DNA of 64,000 bases from Punctularia strigosozonata HHB-11173 SS5 (taxonomy: Eukaryota; Basidiomycota; Agaricomycetes; Corticiales; Punctulariaceae). Shown one piece after another: positions 8,602 through 60,772 of the stretch (positions are counted from its first letter, which is position 1; every line of letters starts with the position of its first letter). The notes beneath the pieces are model-generated. The model saw only the letters and a list, made by a program, of their open reading frames with translations. It searched no databases and was not told where the DNA came from. The position numbers and the translations under genes were made by a program. Location of the stretch: NCBI RefSeq assembly GCF_000264995.1, contig NW_006767439.1:1363512-1427511 (forward strand), in the 5' to 3' direction.

Positions 8602-9519
8602 ATGAAGTTCGCCACGGTCCTCCTCGCGCTCGCGCTCAGCTTTGGCCATGCCGCTGCCGTCGACGCGGGCGAACTGCGTACGTACCATTGCTCCATCCCC
8701 CCTCCCTGCTTCTGACTCAGTACTTTGTCTCGTGCAGCCACCAAGCGCCAAGCTTCGCCTTCCACCTACTTCACCGCCATCCGCGCGCTCAACCTCGACC
8801 TCAACAACGCCCTGCTTGGCTACGTTGGTGCGGTGCTCAACCAGTACGGCCAGTACGGGATCACATGGGAGGCCATCGACGCGCTGCATGTTACTCTCCC
8901 GTCTAATGCCACGTCCGTGCCGTTCGACATTGCTATGACGGTGCGTGGTTACCACTACCCTCAACTTCCTCCTCAATCTCAAAATACGGTGCGTTTGCTT
9001 AGGGCGCCTTCCCGACCCTCGGCGGCGCCGTCGGTCAATCCTCCGCCTCCAACGACCTCAACACCGGCTCCTACAACTATGCTTACTTGGCCGGAATTGG
9101 CGCCGTTCCCGCAGGGTCCGCTGTTGTCGATCAGCGCAGCTCTATCAACGCCACGGAAGGGCTCCTATCCTCAATCGAGAGCGCGTTGTGGACCGTCGAC
9201 GCCAGCACCGGCAATCTCACCGCGCATTGGGTCAATAGCAACGGCGGTGCGTCCTTCTGTGCCTTCGCACAACTTCCAGCATTGTCGTTCTTTCGGCTGA
9301 TGTAAACGCACCTCTCAAAGCGACACCCGTGACGCAGATCGTCTACTATCGCCGCGACAACGTCCTCTGCTTCACTGGAGATCCCGCAACCTTTGGAAGC
9401 GTATTTGGAGACTCTCCGCGTGTTGTAAGTGCACCGCATACTACAACTGTGCCATTATCACTCAACTTGTTGTCACGCATCAGCTGTTACAAGCTGTCCA
9501 GATCCCGACTGTCGTCTGA
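8602..9519 (+). CDS. Small secreted protein family member A (no NAERLARG propeptide)
   Basis: Exons 8602-8677, 8738-8940, 9003-9246, 9321-9424 and 9484-9519; 220 residues; intron phases 1, 0, 1, 0. A signal peptide (MKFATVLLALALSFGHAAA) is followed almost at once by TKRQ, a Lys-Arg site for a Kex2-type protease. The mature part shows the family landmarks: LGYVG, QYGITWEAIDAL, GAFPTLGG, TGSYNYAYL, ESALWTVD, AHWVNSNGG, and a tail ending QAVQIPTVV. It lacks the NAERLARGLPLKKPRR segment found in the other six members. Function unknown. It stands head-to-tail with gene B. Confidence 0.85.
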
Positions 9520-10798
9520 GTATCGTCGGGAGATTGGACTGGTAGTAGACATGTAATTCCCTCGCTCCTAAACGCCATTCTTTTGCATGCCACCCAGATC
9601 GTCTATCGTACATGTAGTAGGCAATCTTCGAGATAATACCCTTGGACGTAGTGTGGCTGTACGGGCGTTGATTGCACGCAACAATCGCACCGGATCCGGA
9701 GCAGCCTCAGTCTGGTTGGCTCTGACTACGACACGGTCCACTGCGCAATCTGCTTCAGTCGCTTATACGTAGCGCTGTTGCGAACAAGTCGAACTGAGCC
9801 GAACTTCTAGTCGGGAAAAAGAACATCAATTCAATTCAGTGGCACTGTAGGCACGCGCCGACGAACGGGTCGAATTGAGGAAAAACCGGGAATGGTATGC
9901 TCGACATCTTTCGATATCTGCATACATCCTTATTCAGTACCATATCAGCTTACTTCGGTGATGGATCGTCGTAGGACTGTACTGGTTCGATCTGTACTAC
10001 GGGAAGCTCGACGACGAATTTTCATCTCGTTTCACGATGGCGACTGCGGATGCTGCTCTCCCAAACGATGTACCGTCTTGAATCACGGCCGAAAAATATG
10101 CTTTGCGATACTCATCTCCAAGCGGTATTCATAAAGCTGCTGTAATCCTGGATAGGAGGAATATCGGTACCAAACTTGCCTCCTGTGCGTCTTCGAGCTC
10201 CTCGGTACGCCTCGTTGTACTTCACGATGACAGCATTGATTGATCAGCGGTACAAGCCTACGGTTACTCTACTCATTCAGTTGCGCTCTATTCCCGGAAC
10301 CTGAAATAACACTGGTCTCCCCAACGAAGATGCACGAGAGCAGAATGTCCTCGTTGCGAGCAAGAAGACGATCGGACATGGTCACACGTCAATGCCCGTG
10401 TGTTTCCTGCTCTTGCCGATTCACGTCTGGAGATTGCGCATCTAAAGCCGGAGGCGCGCTGGCGGCGGGTAGCGGGCGCCCACCTCTAGGTTGCGGTGCT
10501 GTTATTGCGAACGTTCGTTTCAAGGAGAGGCCTGAATTGCATACGCACGTACGCAATCATCTGGTCTAGAATGCGAAGCGAAGATGCGAGCATGTATGGC
10601 ACCAAAGGAAACCTGTTCGCAGTTTTCCGAAGACGCAATCCCCCATTCTCTGGCGATGCACTATCCAGACGGAGACGAGTCCGTCAGTGCAAGGACGGCC
10701 ATCCCCGTTCTTCGCCAGTGGAGGAAAAGTACTAATACCGGACCGTTCATGAGGCTCAGAGACGTCGTGCCCCAACGAAACGCACACACTCGGTCGCA
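9520..10798. other. Intergenic between secreted genes A and B
   Basis: 1.28 kb including the 3' region of A and the promoter of B. No convincing ORF, repeat or RNA gene seen. Confidence 0.5.
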
Positions 10799-11848
10799 AT
10801 GAAGTTCGCCCCGGTCCTCCTCGCACTCGCGCTCGGCCTTGGCCTCGCCAACGCCGCAGACACGGACACCGTCGCGTCTTCCTCCAAGCCCGAGTTCAAT
10901 CCGCCGCGCGCGCTCCTCCACCCAGACCCTGCCCTCGCGGCTCGTGCCTCCCTCCCGAACACCAACGCGGAGCGTCTCGCGCGGGGCCTGCCGCTCAAGA
11001 AGCCCCGCCGGGCGTCGCCCACCCTCCGTAAGTCTTTTCTTGTCGCCTCTTCGCGTCGCGAAGTCAAAGCCTGACCTGCCGTTTGCTTTCGCAGAGGCAA
11101 AACGCCAGGCGCCCTCCGGCTCGCCGTTGACGTACAAGAGCGCGATCCGCGTCATCGACACTGGCAACGGCAATGTCGCGCTCGGCTACATTGGGTCGAC
11201 GACCAATGTGTTCGGGGAGTACGGTATCACCCCCGACGCCGCCAACGCCCTCGCCGTCACGCCCCCAGTCGGCAGCTCGGGGCCGTCCGCCATCGCGATC
11301 CCCGTACGTCCTTTAACGTTCCCTCGCCTGTGTGCAGTTCGCTTACCTCCGCGCAGGGCTCCTTCCCCTTCCTCGGCGGTGTTCTCGGCTACGGCTCCAC
11401 CTCGCCCGACTTCGCACTCGGTTCGTACAACTACGCCTACCTCGGCGGCGTGCACGCCGGGTCCAGCAACCAAACGAACTCGGTCAGCGCGGCGACCGGG
11501 TACCCGACCTTAGGCCAGAGCGCGATCTGGACGTACGACACCGGCAGCGGCCTGCTCGCGGCGCACTGGACCAATACTGACGGCAGTGCGTGACATGACG
11601 CTACCCGCTTTCCCGCCGCCCCTCTGACACCCATCTTTCGTCGCAGGCACGCCCGCGACGCAGATCGTCTACTACATGCCCGACAATGTTATTGCCCTGA
11701 CGGGCGATTCGAGCGCCTTCGGCGATATCTTCGGCGACTCTTCTCGCATCGTGAGTCCCTTCCCCATCCTCGTCCGGCATGCATCGCCTAACGCATCTTT
11801 TCGGTTGCACAGACCCTCCAAGTCGTTCAGATCCCTACGAGCCTTTAG
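10799..11848 (+). CDS. Small secreted protein family member B
   Basis: Exons 10799-11027, 11095-11303, 11357-11585, 11647-11750 and 11813-11848; 268 residues; intron phases 1, 0, 1, 0. Signal peptide (MKFAPVLLALALGLGLANA), then a propeptide holding NAERLARGLPLKKPRR (around residues 57-72) and the second basic site AKRQ at the start of exon 2. The mature domain carries LGYIGSTTNVFGEYGI, SFPFLGG, LGSYNYAYL, SAIWTYD, AHWTNTDGS and the tail TLQVVQIPTSL. It has no cysteine after the signal peptide. Family landmarks and exon structure match members C to G. No enzymatic motif seen. Confidence 0.87.
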
Positions 11849-12421
11849 ATCTCCGCCATCAACGTCCGGACGCAACTCGACGGGCCGATGGTTGGACACA
11901 AAAGGACGTTTTTCACATTCATTCTTCATACTTCCCATCTCAGCGCAGAAAGCGGCAGAATCTCACGCCTCCCGTTCCCTGCGCCCGTTCCACCCTTCCT
12001 TCTCCTTCCTATTGATCGCGCACTCCTTAGAACGTCTCACGGCTTGGTTCGCGCATGCATGTATCGTCCCTGCGTTCTTTGCGTAACGAGCGCAGCATGC
12101 TACTATATCTGGCTGTGATAGAACGTGTTGCATGGATTATGCAAAACGTTGTCCTGATCGTAATTCCCGAGAGATGGACAGAGCGGGGAGATGTCAATGG
12201 GTGGTCGAAGCATGATCTGGCACTGCATGCAAGCCCATGTACCATGGGCTCAACTTTCAGCCTTGATCTCGGCTTGTGCACAGCGAAATCACTCCTAGAA
12301 AGTGATGATCTCTTTCGTGACACTCGCAACAGCGGTTGCAGAAAGAGAGCAGCGTGTTCGACTGATCGTGAGCGTGAGCGAACAGCAATCCGGGTAACAA
12401 TTGACACTCTAGAGGTCATCG
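11849..12421. other. Convergent intergenic region between secreted genes B and C
   Basis: 573 bp between two convergent stop codons, holding both 3' regions. Nothing else recognised. Confidence 0.5.
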
Positions 12422-13546
12422 TCAACTCTCGACGAGCTGCAGTGCCTATGGCAGAACAGAATGGCGTCAGTCGAGTTCGGGCAAGAAAGTCACAGGAAAT
12501 CAGGAAAAGGTAAACTCACCACGCGGGGCGACGTGCCGATGGCGTCTACGAAAGCGGCTACGTCTCCCGTGAACGCAATCGCGTTATCTTCCGCCTCGTA
12601 CACAATCTCCGTTGCGGGTGCACCTGTGGGTGTGGTGACGTCAGCTCACCGTCCGCAATCCGAAACGGAAGGGAATGAAGGAACGGAGTGAAGAAAGACG
12701 AAGGAGCGGGTACGCACTTCCGTCTGTATTCGTCCATTGGGCAGAGAACAGACACGTATCGAGGTCGTACGTCCAGATGGCGCTTTCTGAATACCTGAGG
12801 TAACCGGTCCTGACCGTGAACGAGCTTAGCTCAGCGACCGCCGGCGTGCTGGAAGATGTGTCGTCGACGACGCCGTTCAGGTATGCGTAATTGTACGAGC
12901 CGACCGCAAGATCGTCGTCCGTGCTGCTGTAACCGACCGTCGCACCTAGATACGGGTACGTGCCCTGTGACTGCGAGAAAAACACAGAATGAGATCGGTT
13001 GTGGGTCAAGATGGAGGGAGACGGAGGAGGACGTACGGGGGTAGAGATTTCGAAGGGCTGAGTGGGGTCTGCGGTGGTGAATGAGACTAAAAGCGCGTCC
13101 TCGACGTCGGCCACGATACCGTACTCTCCCCATTCGTTCAACGTGCCGCCGACGTAGCCGAGTACGGAACCCGCGTCGTCGAGGTTCAGAACGCGAAGGG
13201 CGCCCGAGTATGTCACCGGTATGCTCGACGGCGTGGCTCGCTTCGGGACTGGCCCTAGAAATGCCAACAAAATGACAAAAAGGCCAGCATGTTAGGAGCA
13301 GCGAGATGAAGGCAGGGAAAACCAACCATTAGATGACGACGTGCGCCAGCGAGGTTTCTTGAGAGGGAGTCCGAGGCGGAGACGCTCGGCGTTGTTGCAA
13401 GGAAGCGGATCTGGTAGCTGCAGGGGGGACTTCGGTAGCTCCGGCGCGAGTCCACGGCGGGCGGAGTCAGACGAACGCGTCGGCGCGAGAGCACGCGCGA
13501 ATGCGGGTACAAACAGCATGACTGAAAGAGCGGCGAGAAGATGCAT
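12422..13546 (-). CDS. Small secreted protein family member C
   Basis: Exons (transcript order) 13327-13546, 13037-13254, 12718-12964, 12520-12623 and 12422-12445; 270 residues; intron phases 1, 0, 1, 0. Signal peptide MHLLAALSVMLFVPAFARA, then a diverged propeptide motif NAERLRLGLPLKKPR and a second basic site PKRA. The mature domain keeps LGYVGGTLNEWGEYGI, TYPYLG, VGSYNYAYL, SAIWTYD and QWTNTDGS, and ends in the short tail ALQLVES. It is the only member of the left group on the minus strand and converges on B. Function unknown. Confidence 0.85.
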
Positions 13547-14425
13547 GGTGCGACTGCGGGATGCATGTAGGAAATCTGGCGGGTAATCTTAGATTATGAT
13601 AGAAGTTGCGTGAATGGACGTGTTTGAGGGACAGCTAAGATCGACCCATGGTGGTGAAACCGTCGGTCGGTCGATGAAGCAGATGGTAAGGGTGTTTCTT
13701 CATGAAGTGAGTTCATGGCGCGGTATGTTTCACCGGGCACATATGGAGGGCTTGTATGGTCATGCTGGCGCCGGACGGTGAAGTGAAGGTCGAAAGCTTC
13801 CGCCCGGCACAGTAGGTGGGACCATACAGCGGGACATTATGTGTGAAAACGGTGGCCAACGTGAATGTCTTTGACGATCCCCTAACGACAAAACAAGCGT
13901 TGCTATTTCACAGCGTTATCGGTGGTTCGGTCGATCCCGCGAATTAGCCCGAACACTGTCTCTGACCCACTAGCCAGCACGCAAGGTCTCACCATCTTGT
14001 CCGTGTAGAGAGATTGCAACATGTTTGCTTACCGAAGTGCATAAACCTCGAAGCTCGGTATTCGTACATGTACAGTCAAATGCCGCGCCAGTCCGGATCA
14101 AGATGAATTAGACGCAGTTCGCGACGATCTCGACGGAAATGCCGGATAAGTCGGTTTAACAAGACGGCGCACTCTACCCCGACGTTAAACATTATATCGA
14201 TCCGCTGTTGGCCAGAAGTAGCCGCGAAGCCAGAAAGCTTGGATTACACAATGATCCTAACTTGCCCCGTTCGCCATCGTTGCACCTACCGGGTTCATAT
14301 ACAGTAACATTTCACCTGTATCAGGCCAGGTGCGCCACCTTCCGACCCTCCTTACAAGACTACGAATGCACCGGAGACCATGTTTGTTCTCCGATCTCTA
14401 CCGTGTCATCATCCTCCATGATAGC
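13547..14425. other. Intergenic: promoter side of gene C and 3' side of the CHAT gene
   Basis: 879 bp. No supported gene or repeat seen. Confidence 0.5.
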
Positions 14426-17400
14426 TCAGATTCCGAGATGAATATAAGGCGCCCATCGACTCGGCTCAGGGTGCACGAGTCTGAGCTTCAGGACTGCCTC
14501 GTCAAGGGCATATGCGATGTCGTCGGGATTGAGGTACTCCGCATCGCGGCTAAAGAGGTCCTCGTACACGGATTTGGCGATGAGCGGCCCATCCACGTCC
14601 TCCATTGACCTAGGTCAGAGGCATGTGAGCGAGATGCAAGACAGAGCACTATCCTTGATGCTGACCAGAGCGTAGCGATCACAGTCTTGAATCCGGCAAA
14701 CAGCAAAGTTGCGGCAAGGTGGACGACTTGGTCCGGCTGATCCTGTGATGTGCTCGTTATATGGTGCTTATTAGACTCGGATCGTGAACTTACCTTGTCT
14801 CCTTTCGCGGTTTCGCAGGCGCTCAGAAACGCCATGAACGCACACGAAAGAGGTGTTTGCATCAACCTTTCTATTGTGAGCGTCTCGTCTTGCATCACGA
14901 ATCCGCTTTTCAGAGCATTCTCCGGATCCTGGTAGGCATGGCACGCAAGGTGCAAGATTGTCGCCTTAGGTAAGTTCTTCAGTAGCCTTTCAGCAGTGAT
15001 CCCGTTTTCATGTTTCCCGAGAGTGCAATTAGCAGGGATGACGGGTATCTCCATGCCTGCGGGTAGGATTTCGCTGACAATAGAGACTTCCTCGCGACTA
15101 AAGAGGAGGTCATGCCACTGCGATGTGTTTGGCTGGGGAACCGCAGCCAGTAAAGCAAGTATATCGCTCTTCTTCGGTGGCTCACAAGCTTCTCTGGCAC
15201 TGATCAGATATCCCAGGGTTGGCGTATATGAGGATACGATGTAATTCGTGGCCCAATCGCCGTCGGCACCTGCAGCATGGATCGGAAGATGCACGAAGTT
15301 TCCGGTGGGACACCACCATACACGAGGGCGGCCTCGACCGGTAGCAGGCTATTCAAGGAAGAGGTCAGTAACGAGATTAGAAGCGGGAAAATAGAGCGTG
15401 CCTTCAGTTGCAACGAGTTGAAAACTGGGAGAACCACATCGAACCACAAGCGACGTAGAATCTCCTCAGATCTGGTATGCTTCAACTTGTGGGGGCTTGC
15501 TACTTTCAACATCTTGAGGCGATACCTTAGTGCTGTTCTAGTCTGTGTCATTTCTGAATTCCATGTAGCACTCGATTCCACAAGCCACGCCTGCGTAACC
15601 TGCTTGAGAGGTATGCCCATAACATCGCCAGAGGAGTTGATGACTACCGCATGACAGCCTAGCGCGCTGGAAACAAGTACAACGACCGGTCCTTCCTTCG
15701 CCGCTGTAGCCAGTTTCGCATATTCATCGGGAAGAAGAAAGCGTTCCATTCCGGGATATCTGCGTATCGTCTCCAGGAGTGCGTTGAACTGTTCGCTTTG
15801 CTTCCTCCTCCGCGTGACCTCCGATTCCACCGCTCGTGGGTCCTTTGCCGCAGGATCGGTGCGTTCTAGCTGTCTGGCGAGAAGCAGCAGCTGACTGCGA
15901 TTCTTCTCCGGTACGGCATCGAATGGCGAGCGGAGGCGTAAGGTATGAGTCCAAAATATCGCGCGCCCTTGCTCGAGGATTTCAAGGGCCATTTCGGGCA
16001 TCGATATATTCAGGGCATGGGATGCACCTGTGACTGCTACGCTCTGCCCAATTCCGAGGGACACGAGCCTGGATCGCAGATGAAGTCCCAAGAACGCCAC
16101 ACGGGGAAGCAGCCTAACCACACTGCCGTATATGTGCAGAAGCTGCAACTGAGTATCCTGATCAGCCGCAAAGATATCCTTATGATGAGCTTGAATTAGG
16201 TTAAGAATCTCTGTTGCACCTTGAATGCGCGATCGTATATCCCTGTGGTTATCCGACAAGGCATCATGGAGGTATGACAGGGTCATGGAGAAGCTTCGGT
16301 ACGTAGTACCATGTTCGACGTACACCTTGGCGGCGGTGATGAGAGACTTATAACGGCCTCGCCGTCCTGAAGGCGCAGCATCCAGCATGATTTGCGTGTA
16401 CCTCAGTGCGTGAGTCGCATCATCTGGGTCCCGGGTATGGAAGAATCTGCTTCGGTGGCTGTCAACGATTATGCGCAGACATTCCGATCCAGATCCCCTT
16501 TGCGACACCGTGCATATTATTGGCGTGAGTGTCTCGATAGCTTTATTGATATCTGAGATGTCGTTGGTTCCATTTCCGCGCAGAAGCAGGGCTTGAGCCA
16601 TACATTGCACTGCGTCGGTTGCCGTTAAGTGATTGGAGTCGGGAAGGACAATGTCCAGGACACTCTGCGCAAGAGTCACGGCTTGGTCTAGATCCGACGT
16701 CTCCTGAGTTCTCTCGTATCTTGTGCATAGATACGAAGCTTTAGCTAGTGCGACTTGAGGATAACTTGCATAGGTTGGCGATATAAGAGTCATGGCGCGA
16801 TCAATGCAATCGATGGTTTCGTTCAAGTCTTCGATATTGCCCACCTCGGAAAAACTGAACATGAGATTTTCCGCCAAGTTCAGTGCGATATTTTCACCAA
16901 TGCGATAGTTTTGCGGTACAAGAGATGCCTGACGAGAGACATAGATCGCTTCGTCAAGAAAATCTAGATCGCCATTCCAGGCATACTGTTGGCGCAGTGT
17001 CGTAGAGAGACTGCTTAGAGCCGACCAGTATCCGATGGATGTGCGCGGTGAAAATCTCAAAACCTCCCTGCGTAGCTTGATCGGCTCTTGAAAATCATTT
17101 CCATCCGTAGGATACAGCTCTTGACGCAGAGAAAGCAAGTCTGCTAGCGAGTCTGAAAATAATATGGAGGAATATGTCGGAACACTGTAAGGAGAGTGAA
17201 CTTCCAAAGCACGCCGTCCCATTCCAATAGCTTGATCGAGATCCTCTCTGGAGCTGTGATAATTCAATCTCTTCCTGAGCAAGAATAGCATATCATGGAC
17301 GATCTTTGGCATGTCAACGTGTTTTTCCGGGCAGTGATTTAGGGCTTCCGTTTTGATACCAAGAGCTTTCTCGAGAACATTTGGATCGTGTACAGTCTGG

Positions 17401-18329
17401 AACTTTCGGACCAGGTAAATGCCTAGGTATCGAAGATGCCTATGTTTTGTGTGAGACTGGGAGGGCAGAAGCTCCGTGAGTGCGTGAGTTTGCTGGAGGA
17501 TAGCGTCGTCAAGAAGTGCCGCAGATCCTGTGATCTCAAATAAACGAAGCAGAACCCATCCGAGGCCACGAAGCGCAGTTGCCTTCAAAGGATGAGAATT
17601 GGGGCATATTGGAATGATTCCACGATAAAACGACTCTGCCATTGTCACTTCTTCGTGTTCGGAGGTATAATCCGCATGAGACATCAATATGCTGGCAGAC
17701 AATATCGCCACTGTGGGGCATACAAGTCTCTTGCCGCTGCAAAGTACACAAGCGTCTTGAGCGTACTTCACTGCATAATTGAGATCATCGATATGGTTCC
17801 TATAGAGATAGCGTTCCTGATATATCTGTGCCAAGTGAACGAGAATATGAATTCTTCTTGCATCTACACCGAAGCATGATGGAAGCTGTTTGATGGGAGG
17901 GTAGACAAGAGGAGACAAGTGGTGAAGGTGATCATCTTCTGCAAGAAGAGCCGTGTAAGTCTGGATGGATTGATCGGCGGCATCGAGGTCGCTTTTCTGA
18001 CAGAATTCCTCGTGCAGATGTAAGGCCTTTGCGAAGTCGCCTGTGGGTTCCGGCGGTGGAACTAATATTCATGAGTGTACAGAGAGATCATCCGAAGAAA
18101 TGCAATAACAGATATACCTGCAACGCATTCGCAGATGCGTGGGGAGCATCTGGCAGATAACAATTCGCTTTGTATGCAGACAAACTTCCTGAATTCCGGC
18201 ATCTGAACTACGGATGCTATATCCAATGAACGGTTAGGTGAGCATATAGAAATGCGCGGAGATAGAGGACATACAATCAGAAAGATCATTTTTAACGGAG
18301 CCAATGTATTCCCTGTTGGACTCGGACAT
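14426..18329 (-). CDS. TPR-rich protein with C-terminal CHAT (caspase-like) domain
   Basis: Six exons: 18275-18329, 18118-18216, 15402-18061, 14794-15348, 14666-14742 and 14426-14609; about 1209 residues. The first two exons are the least certain. Residues up to about 800 are helical TPR-type repeats (patterns such as ..DLDQAIGMGRRALE.. and ..DLDEAIYVSRQA..). The C-terminal CHAT domain starts with RVWWCPTGNFVHLPIHAAG. It carries the expected catalytic His (HLACHAYQ, H1075) and Cys (FLSACET, C1116). CHAT domains are cysteine peptidases of the caspase/separase clan that are coupled to sensor repeats. The intron at 15349-15401 is GC-AG and falls right at the TPR/CHAT boundary. Substrate and trigger unknown. 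Confidence 0.88.
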
Positions 18330-18510
18330 CCTGAAGACAACGGGGGCAGCAACAGGTATCATCTGATGTCTCGCGACGACATATATATGCAGTTCTGGTA
18401 ATAACAGCGTACGACTGCGGAGAAGATGTTGGTCCTCTTGCGCATTCGCACGAGATCAGCTATGCAGCAACGTTACATCAATAGAGCCCACATCTAAGTA
18501 TATCGATTGA

Positions 18511-18550
18511 ATCATGTATTTCTGCACGTCAGTCATAGGGCCGGCGGCAA
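18511..18550. repeat. 40-bp direct repeat, distal copy
   Basis: The 40 bp starting ATCATGTATTTCTGCACG recurs at 18970-19010. Both copies are followed within a few bases by CTGCTCCTGG. Confidence 0.85.
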
Positions 18551-18912
18551 CCACGGCTGCTCCTGGCTACGTCTGAACTACGTCAAGTGCAGCACAGGAG
18601 GACTATGAATTGCGCAGGCAATGCGGGTAGTCTTGGTAACGCAACTCCAATTTCATTCTGTACAGCCTTGGGGAAGCATTATTCGGATACTGCAATGTCT
18701 GCGAGCTATTCATTTGACACCTCGTCTACGCTGTGCGAGTGATAGAGCCTTAAAGAGGATCTTCCATCTCACGAGGCCGCGTTATGACTCACGATTCACC
18801 TCCATGGGCGCACATAAACCGCAACTGGGTCGTGCGTAACTCTGTATACGTACGAGCTTCATCATGATCAAGTTGAGCCTCAAGTCACGAATTATTCCGA
18901 AGGCGGGAAGGT

Positions 18913-19077
18913 GGTCACTTCGAATCCGGCTGTCCATCAAGGTTTCAGAACCCTGTTCAAGAGATGTAGATCATGTATTTCTGCACGTCAGTCATAGGGC
19001 CGCCGGCAAGCTGCTCCTGGTCACTTCGGATCCGGCTGTCCATCAAGGTTTCAGGACCCTGTTCAAGAGATGTAGAT
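18913..19077. repeat. 59-bp direct repeat, two copies
   Basis: 18913-18971 and 19019-19077 are the same 59-bp sequence with two transitions (starting GGTCACTTCG, ending GAGATGTAGAT). The copies are offset by 106 bp. A second block, starting ATCATGTATTTCTGCACG, lies between them at 18970-19010 and also at 18511-18550. The pattern indicates stepwise local duplication. Confidence 0.9.
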
Positions 19078-26074: not shown

Positions 26075-26162
26075 AGTTATTACGTAGATATTGCACACCT
26101 GTGTTTCCATGTGTTTTGATTGTAGCCTACAGGTATGGACCAGCCCAACGTCAACTGAGCGT

Positions 26163-32788: not shown

Positions 32789-32790
32789 TA

Positions 32791-33036
32791 CTGTAATTTT
32801 ACGACCTTAGGTTCGGTCCGCCCTCGGGGGGACAGGGGACAGCTGCAAGTTCGGGCCCGTGGGAAGTTCGCAAACTGACTGTAGTCAGTGTGCAGTATTC
32901 TCACAGTAGGAAATACAATTCCCACGGTCAGTTCAAGGCCTGGATATTGGTGGCGGGACAGGGGACAACACGGGAAATTAGGTTCAGTTCAGGTTGCCAG
33001 GGGACAGGGGACGAACCTAAGGTCGTAAAATTACAG
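32791..33036 (+). mobile_element. 246-bp MITE, copy 1, with TA target duplication
   Basis: Terminal inverted repeats of about 25 bp begin CTGTAATTTTACGACCTTAG at 32791 and end with the exact reverse complement at 33036. TA dinucleotides flank both ends (32789-32790 and 33037-33038), the target duplication of Tc1/mariner-type elements. The interior repeats GGGGACAGGGGACA near both ends and has no ORF. A second copy, inverted, lies at 63161-63405. The element ends 7 bp before the transposase start codon at 33044. Confidence 0.95.
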
Positions 33037-33043
33037 TACCGAT

Positions 33044-34174
33044 ATGCCTGGCAATCGTCGACACATTTCTTCAGACATAAAAGAGCTCATAGTCAGCCTC
33101 GTCTCGCGAGGCTATAAACCAGAGAAGGTCGCGGAAATCACACAATGCAGTCGGAGGACGGTTTTCCGAGTGTGGTCGTTGGCATGTAACACGGGCAAGG
33201 TGGAAAACAAGCCTTTTCAAGCTGGTAGACCTCGTATCTTGAATGGATTGGACTGCGCGGTAGGTGCTGATACTTGATATGTCCATTGCTCACAAAAATG
33301 CCAGTTCATCGAAGGTTGCCTAGAGCGTCAACCGGACATGTATCTCGAAGAACTGCAACACGAATTGTTTGAGCTACGCCAAGTGTCTGTATCCACTGAC
33401 ACCATATCCCGGACTCTCAAGCATAGAGGATGGACATGCAAGGGTGTAAGTCAATCATTGCCTCCATTGTACCACCCTCTTACCTGGCATTGTACAGATC
33501 TCTCGAACAGCGATAGAGCGAAACGAAGAACATCGCGCAATGTATCAAATACGCATGGCGCAGCACTACCACGCGGAGCAGCTTGTATTTGTTGACGAAT
33601 CGGCATTCAACAAGCGCACTGTGATGCGCCGAAAGGGATGGGCACCGTCCGGTCACAGAGCCCGACGGAGCGACTGGTTCATTCGTGGCCGGAGGTATTC
33701 GATTCTACCTGCTCTCTGGCTCGGGGGCATACTCCATCTTGATGTTCAAGAGCGCTCATACACTGCCGCTCTCTTCAACGAGTTCATCCGTGGTCTCCTT
33801 GATGAAATGGAGCCGTTCCCTAACCCGAAGTCAGTAATCGTGATGGACAACGCGTCCATCCACAAGTCTGAGGCTCTCAGAGACTTAGTTGAAGCACGGT
33901 AAGTGGGTCAGCCTTGTTCCCGCTACACAGGGCCTTACTAGAGTGTAGTGGTATGCGCATCGAGTTCTTACCCCCTTACTCGCCTGACTACAACCCAATC
34001 GAAGAGTTCTTTTCCGCGATGAAGGCCTCATTACGGCGTAATCTGGATGTTGTCCGAGCTGAGCTTGCGGGCGACCATGCTTGCGATCCGTATCGTGTTA
34101 TTTGGGAGGCCGTATTCGAGGCTGGATCCCCAGAGAATGCGGAGGGATGGTTTAGGCACTCCGGATATGTGTAG
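33044..34174 (+). CDS. Tc1/IS630-type DDE transposase, apparently intact
   Basis: Exons 33044-33259, 33305-33445, 33498-33898 and 33949-34174; 327 residues; all introns GT-AG. The N-terminal helix-turn-helix reads SRGYKPEKVAEITQCSRRTVFRVW, followed by a second DNA-binding segment with TDTISRTLKHRGW. The catalytic triad is complete: D152 (FVDESAF), D236 (VIVMDNASIHK) and E271 (YSPDYNPIEEFFSAMK), with 34 residues between the last two (DD34E). I could not find terminal inverted repeats of its own around it. It may be a mobile element whose ends I missed, a domesticated gene, or the source of activity for the adjoining MITE. Confidence 0.9.
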
Positions 34175-35074
34175 CGCATCAACATACCATGCTTTCTCGA
34201 CTTCACGATACTGCAGCATCGCACAGCAGCACTATCGGACCCCCGTACACGCCCCACAGGTCGGCTTCTTTTCGTCAGCGGCATGCGTCGGCTTGCCTAA
34301 TGAGCGTTGTCGTCAGTGTCTATCGTTCTGAGTTTAGCTGCAAGGCTGCGGTCAGTTTCGAACGAGAGAACGCTGGATGGATCCGATGGATCTCAGTAGT
34401 CTTGAGGATATAGCTCGCACGCCACACGAAAAAGGCTCGGATAAATGCGGATCTCACAACCTCGATTCACATCGATATCGTGTCCAGCGACTCCCTGCTG
34501 CTTTGCGGGTCGAAGGGAATGGATCTAGAATCGCGAGCGGCGAGCAACACATTCGCGAACCTGACACTATGAGACGTAAGAATACTTACACCTTAGCGCA
34601 ACGTATCGATGGACGATACCGTACTGCTCGAAGGCTACGGTCGAAAAGGGTTATCTGACGCCTCTCCGCGCGCCTCTCTGATGCATCTGTCAAACGGCTC
34701 CTTTAACGCCTATTCTTGGTCACCCTCCAGTCAAATTCGAGGGGATTCGAAGGCGGCGCATAGCCGGTACCTTGCGGTCGCAGGCTCAGTACCTCCCACG
34801 CTGGCGTTCTTTAACAAATACCCCGTCTCCTTATGCCGTAGGGACCACTCTACTCCACCTTCCGCTCGACGACCGACTGGGTGACACTTGGGGCGGCATT
34901 CGAAAAGCTCATATGTCGCTATGGCACGATGCTCGGTGTTGCATGTGCGTCTCCTCCGCCACATGACTCCAGAGCCGTCACTGGCGGCTTCTCTTCGCCA
35001 CTTCCTCGACGTATAAAATTGACCATGGAACGCGAGTATGGAGTTGTGCCGAGGTAGAAGTCTCATCGAACAGG
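34175..35074. other. Intergenic between transposase and GH25 gene
   Basis: 900 bp. No supported gene. The last 65 bp hold the likely GH25 core promoter with GTATAAAATT at 35011-35020. Confidence 0.5.
35011..35020 (+). promoter_or_regulatory. Probable TATA box of the GH25 gene
   Basis: GTATAAAATT lies 64 bp before the GH25 start codon, a normal distance for a fungal TATA box. Confidence 0.6.
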
Positions 35075-36040
35075 ATGAAGCTCTTCTTGTCTCTGCTCTC
35101 GTCTGCAACTGCCGTTTCGAGCGTCCTCGGCGCTGTGCTCGACAAGCGTGCCAACCCGAAGGGCATCGACGTTTCCGCCTACCAGCCTAGCGTCGACTGG
35201 GCAACGGTCAAAGCGAACGGCGTCTCATTCGCCTACATCAAGGCCACAGAGGGCACCAGTACGTTCTATCCCCTTCGATCTTCCTCGATCTTCGTTCCGA
35301 AGGATGTTTTAATACCGGCCATTAGCCTACACGAACGCCTATTTTTCCAGCCAGTACACGGGCGCGACGAACGCCGCACTCATCCGCGGCGCATATCACT
35401 TTGCGCACCCGGACTCGTCCTCGGGCGCGACGCAGGCGACTTATTTTCTCGCCCATGGCGGTGGGTGGAGCAGCGACGGCATTACCCTCCCGGGAGCACT
35501 AGATATCGAATGTCAGTTTTCTGTATCGGTCTGGTGCGCACAACCTGATATCAGCGCTCGCGATATAGATAATCCTAGCGGTGCCGAGTGCTACGGTCTG
35601 TCCGCTTCCGCGATGGTGTCCTGGATCAAAGATTTCAGCAATACCTACCACTCAAAGACCGGGGTGTATGTCTTCCTCCTCCTCTTTTCCCTGTCGTCGC
35701 CTTACGTCCAAGCTGACACCGCATCTACACCAGATACCCCGTGATCTACACCACCACCGACTGGTGGACGACCTGCACCGGCAACAGTGCCGCCTTCGGC
35801 TCGACGAACCCGCTCTGGCTTGCTCACTTCGCGTCGAGCATCGGTACCACCCCCGCGGGCTGGAGTTACGCCACCTTCTGGCAGTACGCCGATTCCGGGA
35901 CGAATCCGGGCGACCAAGACGAGTTCAACGGGTCGATGGCCGGCCTCCAAGCGTACGTACAGAAATCAAGGAACTTGGTCGTTTATTCCTCTGCTGAAGA
36001 GCCTCCGTTCATGATCGTGCACAGGATCGCCAAGGGCTGA
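35075..36040 (+). CDS. Secreted GH25 (Chalaropsis-type) lysozyme
   Basis: Exons 35075-35258, 35326-35511, 35569-35665, 35734-35952 and 36025-36040; 233 residues. Signal peptide MKLFLSLLSSATAVSSVLGA, then VLDKR, which suggests Kex2-type processing before the mature start. The GH25 signatures are complete: GIDVSAYQ (Asp32), FAYIKATEGTTYTN, RGAYHFAHP, the catalytic ALDIEYN (Asp121 and Glu123), VIYTTTDWW and the late FWQYAD. GH25 enzymes cut the MurNAc-GlcNAc bond of bacterial peptidoglycan. In a saprotrophic fungus this points to attack on, or defence against, bacteria. The last exon codes for only IAKG plus the stop. Confidence 0.95.
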
Positions 36041-36327
36041 TCATGTCTGACGAAGAGCGGAAAGGGTTAGCTGCCATTCGTTGTATGGTTCGTACAGTAC
36101 CGCGATCGAGGCGAGAGCGACGCAAGGCTGGTACGATCACATTCGCATGTACATAGCGCACATATAGCAGTTCTACGAAACTCAGCGAGAGTTATACGTA
36201 CAGCTAGCGGATCGAGCGAACAGCGCTTGAGAGCAGGGGTAGACAAGGGGCGGCAATTACAAACAAGCAAGGAGCCTAAGTGAAGAAGCACGGACAATGT
36301 AGAATAGCATGGAGTCCAGTGATCAGC

Positions 36328-37422
36328 TCAGTTGGCGATCTGAACAGCCCGCAGCGCCTTACGATATTGGGATGAGCATCGATCACTGGAAAAGGAAGAT
36401 GGGAGAGACATACGACACGGTGATAGTTACCGCCAAAGGCGGCGTTGAAAGCGTCCACGTCCCCCGTGAGGATGATGACGTCGTCGCTGTCCACGTATAC
36501 GAGCGACGCCTCGGTCTCGCCTGCAAACGTCAAGATTGTCAGAATTGAAGGGAGGGACAACGCGGAGGGCTGGACGTACTGAAATCGGTGTTGGTCCACT
36601 GCGCATCGAACAGGCCATTGGACGACGCGTAGGTCCAAATCGCGCTCTCCGTGTCCGGGTGGAGCCCCGTAGCATCACTGTACGAGTTGGGGGCGTCCCT
36701 CGCGGGGGAGCCGGCGGGAGAGCCTTCGACACTCCCGAGGTAGGCGTAGTTGTAGGAGCCGGAGAAGAAGTCGTCCGAGGTGGAGGCAAAGCCGGCGATA
36801 GCGCCGAGGTACGGGAAAGTGCCCTGTTATGCGGGGGGTGTCAGAGGACGGCGGGAAGCAGATGGGCAGAAAAAGATGGCACGTACGGAAATCGAGATGT
36901 CGAACGGAGAGGACGGGTCCGTGGTCGTGAACGAGATGGCGAGCGCATCGGCCGGGTCGGACGTGACGCCGTACTCTCCGAAATCGTTGAGCGTGGCGCT
37001 CACATACCCAAGAACAATCGCACCGCCGTCGATGTCTATGACCTGGATCGCGCCGGTGTACGACACGGGAGTGCCCGAGGGCGTGGAACGCTTGGCCGCT
37101 ACCCATACATTTCAGATAAAGACGAGGGACGGCTAGGATTGAAAGAGAGGGGGGACGTACGTTCGGACGGGGACGCACGCTTGGGGCGCGAGACGTGGCG
37201 CGGCTTCTTGAGGGGCAGGCCACGCGCGAGGCGCTCGGCGTTGCTGCGAGGGAGCACCTCGCGCTTCGCTGCGCCGCCATTGGCGTGCGCGGCGATGACC
37301 GACGCAGGGGGGTTGAGCGAGAGGCCGTCGCGCGCAGCGATGTTGACGGTGCGCGTGGGGGCGACGGCGCCCGCGAGAGCAGGGGCAAGAGCAAAGAGAG
37401 AGAGGGCGGCAAGGAACTTCAT
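36328..37422 (-). CDS. Small secreted protein family member D
   Basis: Exons (transcript order) 37161-37422, 36887-37098, 36580-36823, 36414-36520 and 36328-36357; 284 residues; intron phases 1, 0, 1, 0. Signal peptide MKFLAALSLFALAPALAGA, propeptide with NAERLARGLPLKKPRH, second basic site AKRS. Mature landmarks: LGYVSATLNDFGEYGV, TFPYLG, SGSYNYAYLGSVEG, SAIWTYA, QWTNTD and tail ALRAVQIAN. First of four head-to-tail minus-strand members. Its 3' end faces the 3' end of the GH25 gene 287 bp away. Function unknown. Confidence 0.87.
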
Positions 37423-38110
37423 TCTTGTACTTGTGTGTAAAACGAGTGTGGGTGGACGGTTAGGTGGTGATGGTAGCGTAGTCTATAGGTCTAGAGTCTA
37501 CGCAGCGAAGGAGAGAGCGTCGAGGCGAGAGAAAAGAGCCAACGCGAGCATGGCGTAGAATATGTTGGGCCTTGGCAACAATATTAGCCTCTCACACTGA
37601 CGTTCTGGGGTATCTGAGAATGAAAATGTCAGAAAATTGATAAGAGATATATTGAGTTCGGCGTCTCGGTCCCGCCGCCGCTCGATATGGAAGGAGGCCC
37701 CCCTTTTCCGAGGCCCCCTCGATATGGAAGGAGGCCCCCTTTTCCTTTTCGAGGTTGAAGGCGTAGCTCAACATCGACGTTGAAGAAGTACTCACCCAGG
37801 TGATTTTCAAGCCTGCAAGTATATGAAGTAGTGTAGGATGCTATACGGTTCACGATGTGGACAGAAAAGAGGTGGCTACGGAGCCCTGATATTGATTTTG
37901 TCCTGTCAAGGAATTGAATTGCCGAACACAGGAGTAATCATACACAAACGCCGTGTATTGTTGGTCGGCCAGAACGATCCCGGCAGCACCCAGAAACATG
38001 CTTCTAATGTGAAAACTCGGAAGAGCAAAGACGGAAGGAAAGATGAGGTCTTGCTCCTGCAGCCTGTTTTGTTGGCCTCGTCGGGTATCAAAGAAATGCT
38101 CGTGCGCTTT
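37423..38110. other. Intergenic between secreted genes E and D
   Basis: 688 bp holding the promoter of D and the 3' region of E. It includes a short tandem repeat, listed separately. Confidence 0.5.
37681..37750. repeat. Short tandem repeat, two units of about 37 bp
   Basis: The unit begins CTCGATATGGAAGGAGGCCC at 37681 and again at 37718, followed each time by a C-run and TTTTCC. It lies about 260 bp upstream of gene D. Confidence 0.85.
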
Positions 38111-39349
38111 TTAGACTACGATGTGGACACCGAGCACGGAGGAGTCGGCATCCGTGAGAGGCGACGAAGACGGGGTGGTGGTATCATCAATCGGGATGAA
38201 TTGGAACGCCTGTGACAGAGGGACAGGGAGGTTGGTGAGTGAGGGTTCGGACAGGTTCGAAGGGTGGTGTAATGCCGATAGAAGTGGTAACAGGAGGGTG
38301 AACGTACGATCTGGAAGGCGACGCCGTAGGTGCTGATGAAGCTGTCGAGGTCGCCGGTGAGGACGATCGCGTCCTCGTCCGTGGAGTAGGCGAGCACGGT
38401 CGGGGGCTGGTCGACTTGGATCTCGGCTAGGTACGAGCGGCATCAGCGCACGGAATCGGCAAGGAGGAGGGGGAGGGAGGGACGCTAACCGTCGTTAGTG
38501 TTGATCCACTGCGCGGCGAGCAGGGCGCTGTCGGTGTCGTACGTCCAGATCGCGCTCTCCGACGACTCTTCATCGCCGCTCGCGTCCGAGAACGAGTTGG
38601 CGACGTCGACGGCGGGGGAGCCTGGAGCGACTTCCTCGACGCCGGTGAGGTACGCGAAGTTGGCCGAGCCGGTCGAGAGATCGTTATCGTCGCTGTTGTA
38701 GCTCACGGTCGCGCCGAGGAAAGGGTACGTGCCCTAAAATGCATCATCCAAAGGTGAGAAATGAGGGAGGAAATGAGGGACAGAAAACACGCACGTCGAT
38801 GGAGAGGTCGAAGGGCGTGGTGGGGTCCGCGGTGGTGAAGGTCACGTCGAGCGCATCGTCAATGTCGTCCACGACGCTGTACTCGCCGAAGTCGTTCGTC
38901 GTCGAGCTCACATAGCCGAGCGAGCTGCCGTCGTTGTCGAGGTCGATGACCCGCAGCGCGCCGTGATACCGAACGGGGGTGGCCGACGTGGTCTGACGCT
39001 TCGCGGCTATAAAAACGATGCGATCAGCGACACGTGGTACATACTGAAGGGTTCGTGAAAAGATAGACATACTTTGAACACGAGAGGCACGAGACGTGCG
39101 GGAGGCGCGGCGCGGCTTCTTCAGCGGGAGCCCGCGCGCGAGGCGCTCGGCGTTCGTGTGCGGGAGGGGGAGGCGCGGCGGGAGCGGCCTCAGCGCCGAC
39201 TTGGGCGGGTTGAGAGAGACGCCGCGTGGGCCGAGGTCGACCGCGGCGCGTTTGGCGGTGTCCGTCGGTGCGGGCGGATTGAGCGACTGCGCTTGCGTGC
39301 CCGTGATGGCGACGGCGGCGAGGAGGGAGATCGCAGCGAGGAACTTCAT
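38111..39349 (-). CDS. Small secreted protein family member E (extended C-terminus)
   Basis: Exons 39073-39349, 38795-39006, 38490-38733, 38308-38426 and 38111-38209; 316 residues; intron phases 1, 0, 1, 0. Signal peptide MKFLAAISLLAAVAITGTQA, propeptide with NAERLARGLPLKKPRR, second site AKRQ. Mature landmarks LGYVSSTTNDFGEYSV, TYPFLG, TGSANFAYL, ESAIWTYD, QWINTND. The last exon is 99 nt, against 24-39 nt in the others, and adds a polar Thr/Ser/Pro/Asp-rich tail ending VLGVHIVV. The upstream region shares TTAAGTACGCG (39407-39417) with gene F. Function unknown. Confidence 0.86.
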
Positions 39350-40253
39350 CTTCAGGAGGTGTACTTCCAACGGGAGGTGAGTTGGAGGTCATGGAGGAGA
39401 CGATGGTTAAGTACGCGTTTTCCTGAGTGAAACCGCGTTGAACTGCCGGGTCGTTGAGTCTCTTCGCGATTCAGGAGGGGAGGCGAGAAGATAGTCCTGG
39501 TCGAGACACCGGTACGCTGGTATGTTTTGGACATACCAGACCCTTTACGATTGGTCGATTGGGAAGGTGAAAAGCGCTTCTCTGTGTCTCAGTGATCCCG
39601 TATGTCATATTCTCCGGGAGTGAAATGGCGAGTGACCTCGTCGTGTGCGTCGGTTTTGACTCTGAGTGAAAATCGCGGGGCCGAGTTCTTCCCGTCTCCT
39701 AGTGCTCCCAAAGTGCCGGTCATGAGTGCTTGAGCTCTGGAGGGCAGCGGCAAGGGTTCATTCGGCTGGAATGAGAACACGTCGTATCGGGGAGAAGGAG
39801 GAGGAATTTAGCTCGGAGCGGACAAGCCGTATCCGGAAGGAACGCGCTCCTTCCTTTTCGAGACTCGACGCGCCCCTTCGGTTAATGTAGTCGCAATTCA
39901 TGAAGCAATGACGCCTTACGGATCGATCCAACGGTCTTCTGAGACCGCAAAAGAAGACGCCAGTGAATGACGGTCTCCGAATCATAAGTACTAGATGTAC
40001 AACTCGTATGTCTCAGCAGGGCAGTATATGTGTTCGTATTTTGTCGAGCTACAACAGTCCATGATGAATTCAAGAAAATTTCGTGTACAAGTATACTATT
40101 TTTCGAGCATATGACGATTCTAGCGGGGCCAGATTAAGAAGATGCATAAGAGTCCATGCACGGTGGCATAGGGATCATGTCCCAACTCATAAGCTCGGAG
40201 TCCGTATAACTATGTGAACATGGAGATCGGATGCAGTACCATCTGCGAGCCAA
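39350..40253. other. Intergenic between secreted genes F and E
   Basis: 904 bp with the promoter of E (TTAAGTACGCG at 39407-39417) and the 3' region of F. No gene seen. Confidence 0.5.
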
Positions 40254-41349
40254 TCAAGGAGCTGTGCCATCGCTCGTGACGAGAGCGAGCCCCTGCGCAT
40301 AAGTAAGTCGTCAGCCTCAGTGCGCGGTGTGGAAGGGAAGAAAACACGTACGACGTTGGCCGCGGCTCCGTAGGTGTTCACGAACGTGTCGGTGTCGCCA
40401 GTAAGTACGAGCGCGTTGTCGTCCGACAGGTACATGAACTCCAGGGGCTGGAGCGCTATATCGTGCGGCCTTGTGTCAGCAAACGAGGAGCGATACGAAC
40501 GGGGGACCAAGCGCTCACTGCCGTCGGTGTTGACCCACTGCGGGGCGAGCAGGTTCGTCGCGGTGACGTAGGTCCAGATCGCGCTCTCCGAGTCCTCTTC
40601 GAGCCCGGTCATGTCGGTGTAGCTGTTGGACACGCTGGTGGCGGACGAGCCGGCGTCGACGTCGTCGACGTTGGTGAGGTAGGCGTAATTGGACGAGGGG
40701 TAGGACAGATCGTCGTTGTCGCTGGCCGAGCTGACCGTGCCGCCTAGGAACGGGTAGGTGGTACCCTGTGACGATTGCGGCGCGATGCGAGTCAGCGGAC
40801 GATCAGTTGACGGCGAGAGACAAAACACACGGTGACGGAGATGTCGAACGGTACGGTGACGTCCGAGGTGGTGAAGGAGACCTGAAGCGCGTCGTCGACG
40901 TCGTCGACAACGCCGTACTCGCCGAAGTCGTTAGGCGTTGCGCCGACGTAACCGAGCGGGGTGCCCTCGGTGTCGTAGTCCACGACCTGGAGCACGCCCG
41001 AGTACGTCGTGGGCGTGGACGACGTCGTCTGGCGCTTCGCGGCTACGAGAACATCCAAGTATAAATTGTGCGATCGAATGGGACGGAGGGGAGACTACAA
41101 ACTTTCGACGCGGGCAGGGCGCAGAGCACGAGCGCGGCGGGGTTTCTTGAGCGGGAGACCCCGCGCAAGGCGCTCGGCGTTGGTACGCGGGAGCGCCTCG
41201 CGTGGCACGTTCGACTTGAGCTCCGCCTTGGGAGGATTGATCGCGGCGACGTTGCGCTTGCCGAGGTCGACGGTGCGCGTGCGCGAGGGCACGACAGCGA
41301 TAGCACTCGCGCCGACGACGAGGAGGGAGAGCGCGGCGAGGAACTTCAT
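40254..41349 (-). CDS. Small secreted protein family member F
   Basis: Exons 41103-41349, 40831-41042, 40519-40765, 40352-40455 and 40254-40292; 282 residues; intron phases 1, 0, 1, 0. Signal peptide MKFLAALSLLVVGASAIA, propeptide with GKR and NAERLARGLPLKKPRR, second site AKRQ. Mature landmarks LGYVGATPNDFGEYGV, TYPFLGGTV, SSNYAYL, ESAIWTYV, QWVNTDGS and tail GLALVTSDGTAP. It shares the AKRQTTS start of the mature part, and an upstream TTAAGTACGCG motif, with gene E, so the two look like the most recent duplicates. Long antisense frames opposite it (for example 41009-41371) are shadows. Confidence 0.87.
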
Positions 41350-42197
41350 GTCTTGGTTCGAGTCAAGATGAATCGAACGAGCCGACGGGTGATTCGGTAG
41401 GGTGCGTGCGGGGGTTTAAGTACGCGATTCCCGGGAAAGGAGCAGAGCGGTGAGCGCGTCATGCGCTTGATAGAGACGATACAGAACCAGAGCATCCCTG
41501 TCTCGCAATGGGCGCATGTACCAGTCATCCATTGCCCCCCCCCTCCGAGGCAGATGAATGCTATGTTGGAGTAAAGTCTCAACCTTTTCGTCGTTCGTTC
41601 CCCAATTCCAGGAGTATCGACTGAACGCAGCGGCTATATCTCCTGTCTCGCGGCACGCAGACGGTAGCGGTCTTCTTGCTCGTCCTACGCGTCGGAGGAG
41701 GCGCATGCACCAAAGGTGGAGGGACAAAAAAGAGGCCTTCCCTGTCTCGCAACACGACGGTCACGCGTGTTGCTGCCCGGACGAAGGCCAAGATCGAAGA
41801 GGCCAAGATCGAAGAAGGAGTTTAGAAGTGAGTGAAACGTTTAGCCTTTGCGCCAGAAGCAAATGTCGAACGGTGTTGACGTGGTCCTTCCGCGAACGTC
41901 CCTGTCTCTAGAACCTGCGAAGAACTTCAGACTGGGGCAGAAAAGGCCGTGGGTGGCGTTCCGTGTGAATTTCTTGCGCGGATTGCCGGGTGAAGGTAAT
42001 GACGTCATACTTGTCACTTTCAGCCTTCGGAGGTTTCGGCCCCGAGGTGTCTAAAGCGTTGATCATCAAGCCGATGCAAACCACAAGATAAATTGAGCAA
42101 GTACAGTAACATAACAACAGCGCACCGGAAGGCTCTACAGCGGCGGAGGAGAACAAGACGAGAAAACCCATGCAGTTCCCGCTATTTAAGGTCGCAT
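41350..42197. other. Intergenic between secreted genes G and F
   Basis: 848 bp with the promoter of F (TTAAGTACGCG at 41416-41426) and the 3' region of G. The phrase CCTGTCTCGCAA recurs (about 41491 and 41735). No gene seen. Confidence 0.5.
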
Positions 42198-43357
42198 CTA
42201 AGCCTGAACAAACTCGAACGCCTGCCAAGACACCGTTTGAGCCGAGAGACGAGGATACGACGAGAGGAGCGGTCAACGTACCACGACGGTGGAGGTGCCG
42301 AAGTTGGCGTTGAATGCGGCGGGGTCGCCCGTGATCGCTACGGCGTTGGCGCTGGGGACGTACAGGAGCGTCACGGCCGGTGTGCCTAGGGAGAGGAATC
42401 GGGGTCAACCACCGCACCAGTTCATTTCAGAACAGAACGAAGATAAAGCACGTTCACCGTGACAGGAGAAAGATTCACGCACTTCCGTCGGTGTTGACCC
42501 AGCGCGGGGTGAGCGCCCCGCTCGCGCTGTCCCAAGTCCATACCGCGCTCTCGGTACCCTCCGTAATGCCGGCGACGGCCGAGTACGAGTTGGGCTGGAT
42601 GGTGGCGGACGAGCCGGCGGGAGAGCCGGAGACGCCCGTGAGGTAGGCGTAGTTGTACGCGCCCGGGCCGAAGTTGAAGTCCGTATTAGCGAAGCCGGTG
42701 GTGAAGCCTAGGTCCGGGTATGTACCCTACATAAAGCGCAGAGGCAGAGAGGATCGGAGCAAGAGCATGCGTTAGTACGACGTCGCTGACGTGTGCGCTG
42801 GGTGATTAGGGTACGCACGGAGATGGAGATGTCGAACGGCGAGGACGGGTCGGAGGTGGTAAACGTGATGGTGAGCGCCGAAGAGATGTCGGTCGTCGTG
42901 CCGCCGTACTCGCCGAAGGAGGTGGGGGTGGCGGCGAGATAGCCGCGCACGGCGTTGTTGTTGTTCGGTTCGACGACGCGGACGACGCCGGTGTAGGCCA
43001 CGCTCGAGGCCGTGGCGCGTTTAGCTGGATACGTATGTGAGCGTCAACGTCAGGGGTACGGAGGGTAGATGGGGAAGAATGGAGAGGGCGAATGGTATGA
43101 AGAAACAGACCTTGGTAAGACGGACTTGGCGAACGACGATGCGGCTTTTTCAGAGGCAGACCACGCGCGAGGCGCTCGGCATTGGTGCGCGGGAGCACCT
43201 CGTCACGCGTTGAGGCAGCGGCGGCTTCCACGACCGACAGCGGAGGGTTGAACGAGAGGCCGTCGCGCGAGGCGAGGGTAGACGTGCGCGTCGGCGCGAG
43301 AGCGTTCACGCCAGCAAGGGCCGGTCCGAGAGCGAGGAGGGCGGCGAAGAACTTCAT
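42198..43357 (-). CDS. Small secreted protein family member G
   Basis: Exons 43111-43357, 42819-43024, 42483-42726, 42282-42385 and 42198-42221; 274 residues; intron phases 1, 0, 1, 0. Signal peptide MKFFAALLALGPALAGVNA, propeptide with NAERLARGLPLKKPHR, second site AKRA. Mature landmarks RGYLAATPTSFGEYGG, TYPDLG, GAYNYAYLTGV, ESAVWTWD, RWVNTDGS and the short tail AFEFVQA. It is divergent from YVH1. Function unknown. Confidence 0.87.
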
Positions 43358-60706: not shown

Positions 60707-60772
60707 GTCCGGAGGAATCAACATGATGAGCTGGCGCTGAGAGGCGTGCGGAGATGAAGAGGGCCTCGGTTA

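Follow-up and report, generated by a model that had tools for sequence, protein, structure and literature searches.

Seven paralogous genes (A to G), lying in two clusters within a 64,000-nucleotide stretch of the Punctularia strigosozonata HHB-11173 SS5 genome (hereafter the window), belong to a real, dispersed and uncharacterised family of secreted-type proteins, most of which carry a basic pro-domain ahead of a Lys-Arg (KR) site and an acidic mature domain. The surprising part is not the family itself, but that the exon encoding its pro-domain also precedes the mature domain of certain hydrophobins, the water-repellent coat proteins of fungi. We propose that the window proteins are kexin-matured, acidic and lysine-poor surface or cell wall proteins which share their maturation route with these hydrophobins, a reading to which, as a whole chain, we assign a probability of roughly 0.45.

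A basic pro-domain and Lys-Arg site common to the family and certain hydrophobins

The most informative part of these proteins was overlooked in the preliminary description of this DNA, which placed the mature domain directly after a signal peptide. In six of the seven window genes (B to G, not A), a basic pro-domain sits between the two. Its core, NAERLxxGLPLKKP(R/H), is followed by a phase-1 intron and then by (A/P)KR, with the mature domain starting right behind the KR; the commoner form reads NAERLxRGLP, and gene C carries one substitution (NAERLRLGL). A KR immediately ahead of the mature domain, a pro-region confined to the first half of the protein, and a phase-1 first intron one to four residues ahead of the KR are found in all seven genes. 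Net charge of the pro-region ranges from +6 to +14 in B to G, and that of the mature domains of A to G from -7 to -36, the latter containing no lysine in six genes and a single one in B. Gene A possesses only a short leader lacking the NAERL motif, encoded by an exon 1 of 76 nucleotides (nt; 220-277 nt in the others), with the KR at residues 28-29 and a pro-region of about nine residues and net charge 0; its mature domain is also the only one containing a dibasic pair. Kexin, acting in the late Golgi, cuts behind KR, and two loci in the genome match the kexin-type P-domain (PF01483) over the cut-off. The window proteins are of a kind probably trimmed during secretion, judging from their sequence. 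On the 33.57 Mb genome, whose 32 contigs are labelled C1, C2 and so forth (the window lies on C7), the pro-motifs of the window genes are located as follows (window coordinates, strand, genome coordinates):

Gene B, 10964-10989 (+), NAERLARGL; C7:1374475-1374500, genome pattern match
Gene C, 13368-13393 (-), NAERLRLGL; C7:1376879-1376904, one mismatch to the pattern
Gene D, 37217-37242 (-); C7:1400728-1400753, genome pattern match
Gene E, 39129-39154 (-); C7:1402640-1402665, genome pattern match
Gene F, 41156-41181 (-); C7:1404667-1404692, genome pattern match
Gene G, 43158-43183 (-); C7:1406669-1406694, genome pattern match

A protein search of the genome with the pro-segment led to hydrophobin genes. 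The pattern referred to above is a degenerate DNA pattern encoding N-A-D/E-R-L/M-x-R-G-L, which matched the genome exactly at 12 sites, compared with none for the reversed pattern used as a control. All 12 matches fall in pro-exons, belonging on the one hand to family members B, D, E, F, G and C11b (members outside the window are named after their contigs), and on the other to hydrophobin genes on C1 (two matches), C3 (one) and C20 (three, two of them within one gene). Allowing one mismatch yielded 22 matches, against two in the control. Half of the ten additional matches correspond to two further hydrophobins (C1:1172k and C3:2766k) and to family members C, C11a and C19; among the other five, those at C5:1576k and C3:1944k were found on reading not to be pro-exons, the remaining three being on C6, C18 and C22. 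Each of the seven hydrophobin genes recovered through the exact or one-mismatch motif matches the hydrophobin domain PF01185 over the cut-off:

C1:4208k, E-value (E) 3.2e-20
C1:4186k, E 2.1e-19
C3:2801k, E 6.4e-10 (mature part spliced by eye)
C3:2766k, E 2.8e-9 (mature part spliced by eye)
C20:200.4k, E 5.7e-9 (mature part spliced by eye; no hydrophobin match when scanned mostly as pro-region)
C1:1172k, E 1.8e-6
C20:202.7k, E 2.4e-6

Relatedness of the two sets of pro-segments was also evident from a profile built on eight hydrophobin pro-segments, which was scored against 11 family pro-segments obtained through a mature-domain search and hence independently of the motif. Eight of these scored 14.6-32.8 bits and a ninth 7.6 bits, all nine outscoring the best of their 151-199 scored shuffles, while A (1.9 bits) and C2 (0.8 bits) failed to do so. 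Members C11b (32.4 bits) and C10 (15.8 bits) also passed, but had been found by the motif. Furthermore, the first intron is in phase 1 and lies two residues ahead of the KR in six hydrophobin genes spliced by script, and likewise, by eye, in the seventh. The continuation AKRxxPSG is present in seven of the eight hydrophobin pro-segments and, among the window genes, only in B and D. Given that the place, the intron phase and the motif are all the same, these sequences point to one shared exon, used before two unrelated mature domains. No description of a pro-domain common to hydrophobins and the window family was found in the literature searched, comprising titles, the starts of abstracts and passages of two papers.

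One of the C20 hydrophobin genes (approximately 200.37-200.57 kb) possesses two tandem pro-exons, each followed by AKRQEPSGS behind a phase-1 intron, giving two such junctions. This exon duplication would release an internal peptide if both KR sites were cut.

Gene structure and membership of the family

Splice sites of the window genes were picked by hand from the window sequence, the introns resting on nine parallel paralogues (A to G and the members on C15 and C2) staying in frame. The resulting models are:

Gene A, 8602-9519 (+), 220 residues; exons 8602-8677, 8738-8940, 9003-9246, 9321-9424, 9484-9519
Gene B, 10799-11848 (+), 268 residues; exons 10799-11027, 11095-11303, 11357-11585, 11647-11750, 11813-11848
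Gene C, 12422-13546 (-), 270 residues; exons 13327-13546, 13037-13254, 12718-12964, 12520-12623, 12422-12445
Gene D, 36328-37422 (-), 284 residues; exons 37161-37422, 36887-37098, 36580-36823, 36414-36520, 36328-36357
Gene E, 38111-39349 (-), 316 residues with a C-terminal extension; exons 39073-39349, 38795-39006, 38490-38733, 38308-38426, 38111-38209
Gene F, 40254-41349 (-), 282 residues; exons 41103-41349, 40831-41042, 40519-40765, 40352-40455, 40254-40292
Gene G, 42198-43357 (-), 274 residues; exons 43111-43357, 42819-43024, 42483-42726, 42282-42385, 42198-42221

The gene architecture previously proposed from the sequence alone was borne out in most respects. All 28 modelled introns are GT-AG and 53-98 nt long, all seven genes have five exons with intron phases 1, 0, 1, 0 as had been claimed, and exon 4 measures the same 104 nt in five of them (107 nt in D, 119 nt in E). 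That the seven are true paralogues is also upheld by this common plan, and by blastp matches between all 21 pairs of window genes (E of 1e-35 or below, the main alignments being 37-55% identical). Nonsynonymous divergence (dN) is below synonymous divergence (dS) for all 21 pairs, although dS is high (0.6-2.5) and the ratios are therefore rough, and GC content at third codon positions (0.69-0.88) contrasts with that of the introns (0.50-0.58). Each protein begins with a hydrophobic stretch, recognised by sequence rather than by signal-peptide prediction. The mature domains, of 188-220 residues, are nearly free of cysteine, as had been noted, with none in B, D, E, F and G and one in A and C, and so are not cysteine-rich. 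Five proposed landmark motifs survive as consensus motifs, but as exact strings they occur in only a portion of the seven proteins (LGYVG in three, GEYG in five, NYAYL in six, ESAIWTYD in two and WVNTDGS in one).

A tblastn-type search of the genome with the mature domain of gene B identified further members on C15, C2, C19 and C11. Those on C15 and C2 share with the window genes five exons, phases 1, 0, 1, 0 and a 104-nt exon 4; the C19 gene has five exons at positions differing from the window plan, and C11a (C11:1173k) has seven. Two distant members, C11b (C11:796k; 796137-797024) and C10 (C10:84k; 84374-85399), were reached through the pro-motif, which is easier to recognise in them than their very divergent mature domains. 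With approximate splices, a hidden Markov model (HMM) of the family scored 45.4 bits on C11b (best shuffle 13.1, 482 of 500 shuffles scored) and 30.8 bits on C10 (best shuffle 11.4, 480 of 500 scored), the latter aligning by hhalign at 20% identity over 132 columns. From these sequence comparisons the genome holds at least 13 family members, C10 being the least certain.

Phylogenetic analysis and alignment were restricted to the 11 members found by their mature domain (A to G, C15, C2, C19 and C11a). In the resulting tree, A and B join C2 and C15 (support 99/98), E joins F (97/96), and C is placed nearer to E and F than to its neighbours A and B, with weak support (80/81). Neither window cluster forms a clade and members are dispersed, a picture of older duplications whose products have scattered, with a little duplication in place (E/F). 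The local expansion suggested in the preliminary description is accordingly retained for E and F, but does not account for the at least six further members on other contigs. Thirteen columns are invariant across the mature domains of the 11 aligned members and include Y28, N91, W124, W137, N139 and D163 (numbering of the gene B mature domain).

Database searches agreed with the earlier description of the family as apparently undescribed. None of the seven window proteins had any Pfam match at E<=1, PF01185 included, nor was a Pfam match obtained for the outlying members C2, C19, C11a and C10, and only sub-threshold Pfam hits were returned for C15 (TspO, E 0.18) and C11b (cadherin-like, E 0.015; DUF3238, E 0.061). 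NCBIfam gave no match for the family; nothing was significant among PHROGs (E 0.039 and 0.39, each from a single member) or PDB sequences (best E 0.27), no catalytic motif was recognised in the mature domain, and the exact family motifs had no match in text searches of the literature. Hits to the flagellar L-ring (E 0.27-0.37) cover only 33-34 columns rich in S, N and G and were put down to chance, as was a still weaker CWC15-like hit (E 1.1). A bacterial origin was discarded after none of 592 pattern-matching stretches in prokaryote contigs proved a relative by tblastn, using a single-protein query that reaches close relatives only, and a viral origin after the same result for 29 stretches in viral contigs with an alignment query. 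An internal repeat of exon 2 within exons 3-5 was likewise rejected (hhalign probability 0.4%). The label "undescribed" consequently holds with respect to Pfam, NCBIfam, PDB sequences, PHROGs and the exact-motif text searches, and its scope ends there, fungal proteomes lying outside. Hypothetical proteins resembling these are widespread among mushroom-forming fungi, whose genomes, like those of other fungi, hold many lineage-restricted secreted families without assigned function.

Two AlphaFold models were generated. The first (231 residues; exons 2-4 of gene C with two introns read through) reached a predicted local distance difference test score (pLDDT) of about 90 only in its first 60 or so residues, corresponding to exon 2, with nearly all of the rest below 50 and a predicted template modelling score (pTM) of 0.32; strands in the exon-2 part span residues 2-4, 7-10, 16-25, 31-34 and 43-45. 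The second (138 residues; exons 3-4 of gene F plus one intron) was nowhere confident (pTM 0.23).

The surroundings of the two clusters include a gene of the GH25 (lysozyme) type next to gene D (34967-36000, +; PF01183, E 1.5e-9 in its first frame) and a DDE_3 transposase piece (33450-33899, +; E 4.4e-19), both lying between the clusters, the latter a possible agent of rearrangement. A 954-residue open frame (15207-18068, -) shows a weak TPR_10 match below the cut-off (27.1 versus 27.5 bits), and the frame adjoining it looks CHAT-like to the eye. The window also contains a run of 643 N at 47347-47989, edged by C/G homopolymers in the six-frame listing. Close to the end of the window, PF01185 is matched over the cut-off at 60208-60372 and 62148-62309 (-), giving two hydrophobin domain hits with no exact or one-mismatch pro-motif at either; the frame upstream (60306-61010), scanned alone, had no Pfam hit.

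Proposed maturation route and alternative explanations

In the proposed mechanism, a precursor composed of signal peptide, basic pro-domain (NAERLxRGLPxxxPR), KR, and a mature domain of some 190 residues, acidic and poor in lysine and cysteine, would enter the secretory pathway, where the pro-domain may partner the acidic mature domain (or a self-assembling hydrophobin) and keep it soluble or correctly folded and routed. Late-Golgi kexin would then cut behind the KR, and the mature domain would end up at the surface of the cell, in its wall or in the medium. There it would serve a structural or surface function alongside hydrophobins, some of which in this genome bear the pro-exon too. A folding role has a precedent in fungal Kex2-processed effectors, whose pro-domains were needed for correct folding in a heterologous system (PMC8528282). 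Sharing of the pro-segment sequence also hints at a common surface role.

Several observations weigh against this reading. A common pro-exon does not prove a common destination. Among 29 six-frame PF01185 matches over the cut-off (12 of them on C15), only C1:4186k and C1:4208k carry the pro-motif, with neither an exact nor a one-mismatch occurrence at the other 27; this count of hydrophobins is a lower bound, five other carriers having been missed by the six-frame search. The pro-exon thus occurs on a minority of hydrophobins, most hydrophobin loci here appearing to be without it. Within the family, A and C2 lack the motif, their pro-segments scoring below the best shuffle, yet keep the mature domain, which indicates that the pro-domain is not always needed. 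The phase-1 first intron of C19 and C11a is not beside a KR, and C11b, by eye, has no intron there. The charge split is not universal either, given a neutral pro-region in C19 (-1) and a near-neutral mature domain in C11a (-1). Finally, the confident structural model covers exon 2 and not the whole mature domain.

A more ambitious version treats the pro-exon (signal peptide, basic pro-domain and phase-1 KR junction) as a maturation module open to exchange, set by evolution before two unrelated surface proteins, the hydrophobins and this acidic family, so that both would use one sorting receptor or assembly checkpoint and be secreted and built into a single coat; this version is tentative and rather doubtful. 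It is also unlikely, though less easily set aside than the readings below, that the mature domain is a secreted lectin-like carbohydrate-binding protein or an enzyme class outside Pfam, with clustered isoforms directed at different glycans. The six invariant residues named above could line a ligand site, and the cadherin-like hit of C11b, albeit below the cut-off, is to a beta-sandwich; conversely, the absence of Pfam matches, significant PDB sequence relatives and a recognised catalytic motif argues against such an identity, which would also leave the pro-exon common with hydrophobins unexplained.

Two further explanations are improbable to a similar degree. The family might comprise secreted effectors, or other proteins directed at hosts or competitors, that expand by duplication and bear the usual Kex2-effector pro-domain. 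Its members are indeed of secreted type, duplicated and divergent with a Kex2-type pro-domain, and a putative Kex2 pro-domain is present in roughly 30% of 120 effectors from plant pathogens (PMC8528282). Against this stand the few cysteines, dN below dS in every window pair, the dispersal of the family, whose outlying members have introns at altered positions, and the sharing of the pro-exon with hydrophobins, which are surface proteins. Alternatively, the functional product under conservation could be the released pro-peptide itself, on the model of KEX2-processed repeat proteins (KEPs). Conservation of the motif across two unrelated mature domains, and the hydrophobin gene with tandem pro-exons and an AKR behind each, would fit such a product, but the mature domain is conserved too (13 invariant columns in 11 members), each window gene has a single pro-unit, and two members lack the motif. 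Convergence, whereby any basic pro-segment before a KR comes to look alike, is the least credible explanation: despite the shortness and bias of the segment and the KR imposed by Kex2 sites, it is contradicted by the 12 exact matches (none in the control) confined to two gene kinds, the position-specific profile beating same-composition shuffles in nine of 11 cases, the same phase-1 intron beside the KR in both gene kinds, and the recurrence of AKRxxPSG in B and D, though absent from the other five window genes.

Where the preliminary description had envisaged a new system, the family fits better among the Kex2-processed secreted proteins already known, with an unexpected link to hydrophobins. 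Kex2-processed pro-proteins (K2PPs) are defined by architecture (PMC8528282). The window proteins begin with a hydrophobic stretch, a putative signal peptide, and share with K2PPs an N-terminal pro-region ending in one of the accepted sites (KR, RR or LxxR), here a KR before the mature domain; they differ in having a pro-domain whose sequence is conserved and which two unrelated mature domains share, and in that the mature domain is cysteine-poor. With the hydrophobins bearing the pro-exon they have in common the pro-motif, the phase-1 intron beside the KR and, in the one hydrophobin checked, an acidic, lysine-free mature part, whereas the window mature domain has roughly double the length, contains 0-1 cysteines rather than eight, and does not match PF01185. 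KEPs of Agaricomycetes, which carry multiple peptide cores (PMC9769878), are likewise secreted precursors cut at KR, but the window genes have one pro-unit, not multiple KR-flanked cores, and a large conserved mature domain; pieces of the pro-motif had no match in a term search of its text.

Conservation of the pro-exon ties a secreted family without assigned function to hydrophobins, whose function is known, and thereby provides a testable guess at its role. A link between Kex2 processing and hydrophobin function is familiar from the Ustilago maydis surface proteins Hum3 and Rep1 (repellents), in which peptides are repeated and there is no single conserved pro-exon. If the proposed route is true, some hydrophobins of this fungus would mature through an extra step which, to our knowledge, is left out of usual accounts. 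Our findings suggest that pro-domains removed by kexin may be more than filler, serving as specific modules that different proteins reuse.

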